DNA of 64,000 nucleotides from Candidatus Zixiibacteriota bacterium (GTDB lineage Bacteria; Zixibacteria; MSB-5A5; GN15; FEB-12): positions 1 through 64,000 of the forward strand of contig JAJRSF010000033.1 in NCBI GenBank assembly GCA_024278935.1, in the 5' to 3' direction. A program made the position numbers and the translations under genes. Positions 42,275 to 49,617 of the stretch are shown in pieces (position 1 is the stretch's first letter; each line of letters begins with the position of its first letter). Below the pieces are notes generated by a model. That model saw nothing but the letters and a program-made list of their open reading frames with translations, was not told where the DNA came from and searched no databases.

Positions 42275-43192
42275 ATGTTCGCAAAAAAATCATTGATGAT
42301 TTTCTGCTTTGTCGCTTTCGCAACAGCATCTGTTTTTGCACAAAGACCTGAACCAAAGAAAACAGAAGTGCTCGGTCATACTATGTATACCTTGCTCAAG
42401 CCGGGTGATATCCCCGCAATTTTTGACCCACAGTTTATTTCTATTGCCGATGCCGAATCGTTGTACTACGATAATGAACCGGTTATCGTTGTTACCGATG
42501 GGAACAAAGCCAAAGCATATTCTATATGGCATCTTGACCAGCACGAAATTGTAAATGATTATATAAATGGCAAAGCAATCACGGTCACATGGTGACCACT
42601 TTGCTATACCGGTATCGTGTATACCGCAAATGTAGATTCTATCCGTCATACTTTCCAAGCATCTGGTTCCCTCTGGCAGGATGCCTTAGTCATGCAGGAT
42701 TTAGAAAACAAAACTCTTTGGGCGCAAATAACAGGTGAAGCAATTCAGGGAGATCTCAAAGGAAAAAAACTTGAGATGTTTAACAGTTTTTTCCATTCCA
42801 CTTTTGCTGAATTCAAAAAACAATACCCTAACGGAGTTCTTCTGAAAAAAGAAATCATTGGTGAAGCTAGTTCGCATTATAAAAAATATATGGATGACAG
42901 CACCAAGTTCGGAATTTTTGAACGTGCCGATACATTTAATAAACTCGGTGGCAAAGAATTAGTATTTGGGATTCGTCATGACGATAAAATTGTCGCAGTT
43001 TCAAAAGACTATTTAATAAAAAATAAAAGTTATTCATTTAAATCAGGTGAGCTGACAGTTGTTATAGATTTTGATAATGAATCAAATACAGTTATAGCTT
43101 ATGAAAAGAAAGATAATAAACCTGTTGGTGTGGTAACATCGTATTGGTTTGCCTGGATTTCTTTCTTCTCTGAAACGGAGTTAATCCATTAA
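42275..43192 (+). CDS. DUF3179-family protein with in-frame UGA, candidate selenoprotein
   Basis: A signal peptide (to about 22) and DUF3179 sequence PVIVVTDGNKAKAYSIWHLDQHEIVND run into TGA at 42593-42595 (codon 107) in the phrase TVTW-UGA-PLC. Family members read VTYCPLC here, so UGA stands for the first Cys of CPLC, giving a UxxC redox motif. The frame continues with the rest of the family (FQASGSLWQDALVMQD, LWAQITGEAIQG) for a total of 305 residues. A hairpin that fits the bacterial SECIS pattern follows directly (separate entry). Secreted or periplasmic. Family function is not established. Next are an FAD oxidoreductase and a membrane Fe-S protein. A single TGC-to-TGA change is the alternative. 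Confidence 0.88.
42596..42630 (+). promoter_or_regulatory. Candidate bacterial SECIS element
   Basis: Directly after the UGA: TTTG (42600-42603) pairs with CAAA (42627-42630), a 6-base 5' bulge CTATAC, then CGGTAT (42610-42615) pairs with ATACCG (42621-42626) around the loop CGTGT. The apical loop is 20 bases from the UGA and has G as its second base; the known bacterial consensus asks for about 16-37 bases and a G in the first two loop positions. Confidence 0.65.
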
Positions 43193-43267: not shown

Positions 43268-44524
43268 ATGCACTATGTCATAATTGGAAATGGTGTCGCC
43301 GGAATCAATGCCGCCAATTCACTGCGAAATTACGATAACGATGCCGAGATTTCAATTATCTCCTATGAAACCGAGCATCATTTTAGTCGCACAGCTCTTA
43401 TGTATGTTTTCTGCGGTCAGCTCAGCGAACAATGCGTTGAACCATTTGAACGAGACCACTATGAAAAAATGGGCTTCAAACGTATCAACGATAAAGTCAG
43501 CACACTTGACCCCGACGCCAACAAGCTCATGCTTGAAAGTGGCAAGACCGTATCGTATGACAAATTACTTATCGCATGTGGCTCTGTACCCGCAATGTTT
43601 GGATGGCCCGGTTCGGAATTAGATGGTGTTGGTAATTTTGTCACATGGCAAGATTTACAATGGCTCAAGGAAAAAGCTAAAACTTCAAAAAAAGCTGTCG
43701 TTGTTGGTGGAGGACTTATCGGAATCGAAACAGTTGAAATTCTTTTACTTGCTGGTATCGATGTAACATTTTTAATTCGTGAAGATTTCTATTGGCCAAT
43801 AGCACTTGACCAAAATGAAGGTGACATTATCGCCGACCATATGCGACATCATAAAGTTGATTTGCGATTGAAAACCGAATTTGCCGAGATACTTGGTAAA
43901 GATGGAAAAGTTGTCGGAGTCAAAACAGGCGACGGTGAAATTGTCGATTGCGATTTAGTCGTCATCGCCGTTGGTGTTCGTCCACAAACCGATTGGCTCA
44001 AAGAGTCATCTCTTGCTCTGGATGAACGTGGCGGAATTATCGCCGATGAAAATCTGAAAACAAATTATGATAATATATACACCGCCGGCGATTGTGCAGC
44101 AGTCATGTGGTTCAACAATGTTCGTCGCCCTGAACAACTTTGGTACACTGGTCGTGACCAAGGTAAGATAGCAGCATCGAATTTGATAGGCATGAACAAA
44201 ATTTACAAACGGGGTACGTTTTATAACTCGGCAAAGTTTTTTGATATTAAGTATACTACCGCAGGACTTGTCAATTTTAATCTCGATGGTGAGAAAAATT
44301 ATTTTTCTCAAGAAGATGACACCAACTATACCATTCGCATAACATACCTACCAGACAATTCTGTTGCAGGGTTTAATATGCTTGGACGAAGATGGGACCA
44401 TCGGGTGCTTGTCAACTGGGTTGATGAAAAACGGCAACTTGACTGGGTACTGAAGCATCTACATGAAGCACTCTTTGATGAAGAGTTCATGCCAACCTTT
44501 AAACTCAACCAAAAAGTTTCCTAG
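43268..44524 (+). CDS. FAD/NAD-dependent pyridine nucleotide-disulfide-type oxidoreductase
   Basis: 418 residues with N-terminal FAD motif YVIIGNGVAGINAA, NAD motif VVVGGGLIGIETVE (about 143-156) and second FAD motif NIYTAGDCA (about 275). It has no CxxxxC redox disulfide; the pattern resembles rubredoxin/ferredoxin or nitrite-reductase-type reductases. It could deliver electrons to the membrane Fe-S protein encoded seven bases on or to the DUF3179 protein. AAAGGAG upstream confirms the start. Confidence 0.88.
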   Translation: MHYVIIGNGVAGINAANSLRNYDNDAEISIISYETEHHFSRTALMYVFCGQLSEQCVEPFERDHYEKMGFKRINDKVSTLDPDANKLMLESGKTVSYDKLLIACGSVPAMFGWPGSELDGVGNFVTWQDLQWLKEKAKTSKKAVVVGGGLIGIETVEILLLAGIDVTFLIREDFYWPIALDQNEGDIIADHMRHHKVDLRLKTEFAEILGKDGKVVGVKTGDGEIVDCDLVVIAVGVRPQTDWLKESSLALDERGGIIADENLKTNYDNIYTAGDCAAVMWFNNVRRPEQLWYTGRDQGKIAASNLIGMNKIYKRGTFYNSAKFFDIKYTTAGLVNFNLDGEKNYFSQEDDTNYTIRITYLPDNSVAGFNMLGRRWDHRVLVNWVDEKRQLDWVLKHLHEALFDEEFMPTFKLNQKVS

Positions 44525-44536
44525 GATGGATTGATT

Positions 44537-45634
44537 ATGCAAGCAAGTTTGATGTCAACTTATAAATCTCCTTTGAAATCTAAAGGGATGATAGCCTGGG
44601 TACTTTCATTTTTACTTTTTGCTTTTTATCTGCTCATTTATTTTACAAACATACCTGACAGTTGGGCGCATCTTGTTGGGCTTGAAAGTAAATGGAATCT
44701 CTATGGCGTTCTCTATACAATTTCAATCGTCGCAGGTGGTTTGTTTTTTATCAATACCCATGGCAATAGTCGTTACCAAAAGTTCAGAACTTTCACACTC
44801 ATATTTTTCCAAATCGTTTTTGCTTTTTCTATCCCAGAAATCATGGGAATGTTTGAATCAAAAGGATTCAACTTCGCTAAGTTCTGGCCATTAGGTATAG
44901 AACAGTTTAGTCCAGAATATATTTTTGAATATCCGCTTCTCATAATTGTCTACGCCTTTGTTGGTTCTTTAATCGTCGCACCAATCCTGACTCTTCTCTA
45001 TGGGAAACGATGGTACTGTTCATGGGTCTGCGGATGCGGTGGTCTTGCTGAAACAGCCGGCGATCCATTCCGTCAGCTATCGAGTAAATCTGTCAAGGCA
45101 TGGAAGTTTGAACAGATTTCTATCCATACTGTTTTACTGCTTGCGATTCTTTCAACATCGCTTGTCATTATCAACTGGGGTCTGCACTTCGAAAACGCAG
45201 CAGGTGAGTGGGTAACAAATCATGCAACTTTTGATTAGGTCGCCTCAAAGATTCAAGGCACCTACCAGTTCTTAGTTGTTGCTATGCTCTCGGGAGTGCT
45301 TGGCGTGGGACTCTACCCGTTGATGGGTTCAAGAGTCTGGTGTCGGTTCTTCTGTCCAATGGCTGCCTTGCTTGGCTTGATTCAGAAATTCGGAAGGTTC
45401 CGCATAACCGTCAAAGATGAGATGTGTATCTCCTGCGGGAACTGTTCGACATATTGTGAGATGGGTATCGATGTTCGCTCCTACGCTCAGACCAATCAAT
45501 CATTCAAACGAGCTTCTTGTGTTGGTTGTGGGATGTGCGCTCATGTCTGCCCTCGTGGAGTACTTCGACTTGAAAACAAATGGGACTTCCGCAACACTGC
45601 CGACAAAAACAAACGCAAAGTTTTCGATTTATAG
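44537..45634 (+). CDS. NapH/NosR-like membrane Fe-S protein with in-frame UAG
   Basis: From ATG 44537 (GGATGGA upstream) the frame encodes four to five membrane helices and WYCSWVCGCGGLAETAGD, the NapH/CcoG-type Cys motif, then reaches TAG at 45236-45238 and continues in frame with QGTYQFLVVAMLSGVLGVGLYPL (a helix), VWCRFFCPM and two [4Fe-4S] motifs CISCGNCSTYCEMG and CVGCGMCAHVCPRG. About 364 residues read through. Such proteins pass electrons from quinol or a flavoprotein through the membrane. The stop splits a conserved core, and a CAG-to-TAG change is simplest. Confidence 0.87.
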
Positions 45635-49011: not shown

Positions 49012-49617
49012 ATGAAAAAAACAGTTATCGCATTATTACTTTTGCTTTTTGCCTTTGGCTCTGCTTCAGCAGGGGTACATCATTTCTCCCCAACACCAGC
49101 CGATATGTTTGATTTAGATCACGGCTATTATTACGGATGGGGAATCGATCATGATTTTGGAGATGAAAAAATTTCAAATGTCTTTTTGACCGTTAAAAAT
49201 GTAAACAACTGGTGGCCTGAACCTAATATGTTATTTATCAATATGATGGACCAGATGGATGCCGGCTTGTATGTTGGTGATGATAACGCATCTGTTGGTC
49301 TTCCTGATGATATTCAAAATTTCTATGAAGGTCAGGGCGTTGTTGTTGATGCCTGGACTGACACAGATGGCGGTCCGAATGGTGACTGGGTAGATTTGAA
49401 TTACGATTTTGCATCAATGGGACTTCTCGATGATTTCATTTCGTTCTCTGCCGATGGTAATTTTGGATTTGGTTTTGACCCTGATCGTCATTTCTTTAAT
49501 GATAAGATTCAGCTTACTGTTGTAACTGATACTCCTGAACCGGCAACGATGCTTCTTTTTGCTTTAGGTTTAGCAGGCGGAGTTGTTCGGAAAAGATTTA
49601 AAAGGTTAAATAAATAG
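49012..49617 (+). CDS. PEP-CTERM sorting-domain protein
   Basis: 201 residues: signal peptide (to about 20, FGSASA-GVHHF), an acidic Asp/Gly-rich body, and a C-terminal PEP-CTERM tag with TPEPATMLLFALGLAGGVV then RKRFKRLNK (PEP motif, helix, basic tail). Exosortase recognises such tags and moves the protein to the exterior, often with exopolysaccharide. No exosortase gene is in the window. A sigma54 promoter lies upstream. Confidence 0.88.
   Translation: MKKTVIALLLLLFAFGSASAGVHHFSPTPADMFDLDHGYYYGWGIDHDFGDEKISNVFLTVKNVNNWWPEPNMLFINMMDQMDAGLYVGDDNASVGLPDDIQNFYEGQGVVVDAWTDTDGGPNGDWVDLNYDFASMGLLDDFISFSADGNFGFGFDPDRHFFNDKIQLTVVTDTPEPATMLLFALGLAGGVVRKRFKRLNK

Follow-up and report, generated by a model that had tools for sequence, protein, structure and literature searches.

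A predicted DUF3179 selenoprotein gene with a conserved SECIS-like hairpin in Candidatus Zixiibacteriota

The DNA analyzed here, a 64,000-nucleotide stretch of a Candidatus Zixiibacteriota metagenome-assembled genome (MAG) referred to as the window, contains two open frames of the same phase that are split by a TGA, and it raises the question of whether this codon breaks a gene or specifies selenocysteine (Sec). The original prediction favored Sec, and frame reading confirmed that the TGA at 42593-42595 is the sole stop between the ATG at 42275 and the TAA at 43192 on the forward strand. The read-through product, 305 residues with U107, corresponds to DUF3179 along its entire length (PF11376, E 9.5e-57; 193.1 bits against a curated cut-off of 27 bits, covering positions 3-277 of the 292 in the profile). 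A hydrophobic N-terminal leader encoded at 42275-42340, modeled as a helix at residues 2-20, is likely a signal peptide (MFAKKSLMIFCFVAFATASVFA followed by Q), suggesting export. Based on the evidence below, we estimate a probability of roughly 95% that 42275-43192 is the gene of a DUF3179 selenoprotein, located in the periplasm or exported, in which Sec107 is inserted via SelB and a downstream hairpin.

Conservation of the in-frame TGA

The local reading around codon 107 is VTW-UGA-PLCYTG, with Cys110 of the UxxC motif encoded by the TGC at 42602-42604. To place this codon in context, DUF3179 homologues were aligned from a set of 98 genomes, the window's own included, 29 of which carry the family. 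The nearest named relatives are other Candidatus Zixiibacteriota MAGs (79% best-segment identity). Approximately 30 DUF3179 matches with exactly one TGA were found in the 98 genomes, two further species of the genus contributing one apiece, and same-genus orthologues with the identical TGA are 83 and 80% identical to the window protein. When all loci were pooled, 45 distinct genes had TGA at column 107 (45/45 Sec-form genes) and 17 others had Cys, bearing out the proposal that UGA replaces a cysteine, although the family phrase originally given as VTYCPLC is in fact VTWCPLC or VTYCPLT. The TGA forms span Zixiibacteriota, Neomarinimicrobiota/Fidelibacterota, Acidobacteriota, Eisenbacteria and Planctomycetota. 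We also observed that the window protein is about 12-40 residues shorter before the C-terminal WFAW (42965-43150) than its relatives, including those of the same genus.

A sequencing error or recent nonsense mutation in a broken gene would also place a TGA in this frame, and the MAG does have private stops at two further codons that are conserved as Leu. The first is an in-frame TGA in selA (FAI-TGA-EKLL; G000 C64, L001:1109-1111), at a site that is Leu in 10 of the 11 relatives compared and Thr in L051, with no stop there in same-genus relatives. The second is an in-frame TAG at 45236-45238 in a NapH-like gene, where L058, L059 and L063 have a Leu codon; pyrrolysine was considered at this TAG and rejected, as PylS is absent from the genome and the relatives have Leu. 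Because neither stop is shared with relatives and a single base separates each from the codon in a same-genus relative, both are likely base errors or recent mutations. Were the selA TGA real, SelA would be cut off and the strain would be unable to make Sec, although the surrounding species can. The DUF3179 TGA differs from both: two further species of the genus share it, as do more than 40 genes drawn from five phyla, and the protein is conserved beyond it. The relatives thus refute error or recent mutation as its origin, leaving this explanation with next to no probability, and their alignment indicates that the TGA is a genuine feature of the gene.

The downstream hairpin and the selenocysteine machinery

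The original prediction also described a SECIS-like hairpin with the loop CGTGT, G as its second base, 20 nt after the UGA. This hairpin is present at 42610-42626 on the forward strand (C-GGUAU-CGUGU-AUACC-G; -5.3 kcal/mol), with 6 bp (GGUAU/AUACC plus one C-G pair), a 5-nt loop at 42616-42620 with G second, and a UGA-to-loop spacing of 20 nt. In the general bacterial SECIS model, the upper stem has 4-16 bp, the loop has 3-9 nt with a G within its first two places, and the element lies 16-37 nt from the UGA (PMC13188914); the window hairpin falls within all of these bounds for stem, loop, G and distance. Relative to this general model, the DUF3179 hairpins alternate between two loop types, C-GUG-U and A-GUU-U or A-GUC-U.

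The suggested folding of 42590-42640 gave a divided answer. The minimum-energy fold of these 51 nt was no better than that of shuffled sequences (z -0.25) and did not contain the SECIS stem, but the stem became dominant, with pair probabilities of 0.87-0.99, once the first 11 nt, which the ribosome is expected to occupy, were omitted. Folding by itself is therefore weak evidence, because the 51-nt region does not exceed shuffles and the stem needs those 11 nt left out.

The strong evidence for the putative SECIS element is comparative. Standard pairs occupy 220/225 stem cells (97.8%) in TGA-form DUF3179 genes, compared to at most 54% when one arm of the stem was slid by 1-3 bases and to 37/85 in Cys-form genes. 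In a synonymous control, in which codons at five positions were redrawn, gene by gene, according to the codon usage of these genes, full stems averaged 7.2 and reached a maximum of 17 over 2000 draws, against 41 of 44 genes observed; these stem counts are not independent events, as the sequences are related, and the control leaves shared ancestry in. Compensation is visible at individual positions as well. Within the window's genus, the pair 20-30 changes from C-G to U-A, and in L042 and L043 three stem pairs are altered together while the encoded peptide differs (AVVYS instead of GIVYA). The third bases of the Val codon and the codon preceding it are likewise coupled, with C accompanying GTG (29), A accompanying GTT or GTC (15) and G accompanying GTC (1).

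The selenocysteine genes proposed as a check were found in the 3.4-Mb, 68-contig genome: SelB (314 bits), tRNA-Sec (64.5 bits, anticodon TCA), SelD (372 bits), which has its own UGA in CAG-U-ASK, and SelA, which adjoins SelB and carries the private TGA described above. SelB was of no use for contrasting Sec with Cys forms, since it is present in 27/27 named genomes tested and separates nothing.

These data also bear on whether an altered code or leaky read-through places Trp or some other ordinary residue at the UGA. The frame does stay open, and a Trp codon immediately precedes the UGA. Against such a reading, however, members lacking the TGA align Cys and never Trp, the downstream stem is conserved only in TGA forms, and the genome has tRNA-Sec and SelB, making an ordinary residue very improbable. 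Selenocysteine decoding of 42593-42595, as judged from these comparisons, is almost certain, and we infer that it takes place in the cell. SelB loaded with Sec-tRNA-Sec would bind the hairpin immediately 3' of the UGA at 42593 and would then insert selenocysteine as residue 107, which corresponds to the single invariant cysteine of the family. Pipelines that halt at UGA would truncate Sec-DUF3179 genes.

Sec and Cys forms, motif and modeled fold

Sec forms cluster in the tree, with 3 Sec/Cys changes compared to a mean of 16 after shuffling. One acidobacterial Cys form, L103, groups with the Sec clade and retains 4/5 stem pairs, and on these grounds looks like a Sec-to-Cys change. A second, TGA-free DUF3179 paralogue occurs in nine genomes, the window's among them (C38:175703-176611, VTYCPLTGS). 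This paralogue has the same domain over its length with Cys at the Sec position, but differs from the window gene in lacking both the TGA and the hairpin, in having Thr for the second Cys, and in its lipoprotein-like leader.

The retention of a Cys paralogue in some genomes, including this one, would suit a scheme in which the UGA acts mainly as a regulated stop, with a 106-residue product dominating and Sec insertion serving as a selenium sensor. Some termination is generally permitted at Sec codons, which would also fit. Many invariant residues follow the UGA, however, implying that selection maintains the full-length protein, and the 106-residue product would lack the conserved Cys/Sec position; we consider a regulated stop highly unlikely as the main role of this codon, and full-length Sec-containing DUF3179 the preferred reading.

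Among 47 sequences, U107, P108 and L109 are invariant, as are W106, E91, Y82, D142 and W149, while Cys110 is variable. The 44 Sec-form motifs comprise UPLC (37), UPLA (4), UPLL (1), UPLK (1) and UPLQ (1), such that Ala, Leu, Lys or Gln stands at +3 in 7/44, and the Cys paralogues have CPLT. Three Sec forms (L086, L091 and L099) have no cysteine besides Sec within the aligned stretch. The DUF3179 motif is thus U-P-L-x and not strictly UxxC, and the original proposal of UxxC as a typical redox motif does not extend to the family: given these variants, some of them without any other cysteine in the aligned stretch, the family can do without a UxxC redox pair.

An AlphaFold2 model with Cys in place of Sec was confident (pLDDT 93.8, pTM 0.88) and mostly beta. 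Searching the PDB by fold with this model returned no match with E <0.04, and TM-scores were no higher than ~0.2 among the matches listed; the PDB sequence search gave only chance haemoglobin matches. A thioredoxin or other known redox fold is accordingly not supported, as the confident model has no PDB counterpart. Because Cys110 is variable and no PDB chain matches the model, a thioredoxin-like UxxC mechanism is unsupported family-wide. The invariance of position 107 suggests that this residue most likely confers a selenol-based, probably redox, activity outside the cytoplasm. More tentatively, with the balance somewhat against it, DUF3179 may be an exported selenoenzyme with a fold absent from solved structures, a selenol that works without a motif partner Cys, and a Sec form that is old and multi-phylum. 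With no solved counterpart to the modeled fold, DUF3179 would repay structural and biochemical study.

Relation to listed selenoproteins and genomic surroundings

The original prediction did not regard DUF3179 as a recognized selenoprotein family, but it is already listed as a predicted one, with the motif UxxC/T, in reviews from 2022 and 2026 (PMC9312934, PMC13188914). According to these reviews, the entry is credited to Zhang and Gladyshev 2007 (Olavius algarvensis symbiont). The listed protein shares Pfam PF11376 and Sec in U-x-x-C with the window protein and is a prediction without experiment (PMC9312934, PMC13188914). Because both published lists include DUF3179, the window protein adds a member to a predicted family that was already known. 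What the present set adds to these lists is taxonomic spread, with Zixiibacteriota, Marinimicrobia, Acidobacteria and Planctomycetes not named in the 2026 review (PMC13188914), and the predicted UxxA, UxxL, UxxK and UxxQ forms beyond the listed UxxC/T. With the present evidence, an entry in a catalogue becomes a selenoprotein family that is firmly established, broadly distributed and strongly supported at the RNA level.

Downstream on the forward strand lie a FAD/NAD(P) pyridine nucleotide-disulphide oxidoreductase gene (43268-44524; PF07992, E 1.8e-57), which is also the neighbor in the genus and in L063, and, two genes downstream of DUF3179, the gene for the NapH-like membrane 4Fe-4S protein (44537-45634; Fer4_5 and other domains). 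M3 peptidase, HEAT-repeat, oxidoreductase and 4Fe-4S neighbors are common only to part of Zixiibacteriota. Operon context was rejected as a functional clue, no neighboring gene being common to all. Farther along the window, 49012-49617 encodes a small exported protein with a PEP-CTERM-like tail at its C-terminus (TPEPATMLLFALGLAGGVVRKRFKRLNK).

In Marinimicrobia L085, L088 and L090, a selD-like gene lies a few genes away from Sec-DUF3179, upstream on the opposite strand. In L042 (712-2085) and L043 (688-1995), DUF3179 with its own UGA (YUPLK and YUPLQ) is fused to C-type lectin and dockerin domains, as assigned by Pfam on L042 and by sequence similarity for L043; L042 has a fully compensated SECIS stem and a further in-frame stop (TAA) downstream.
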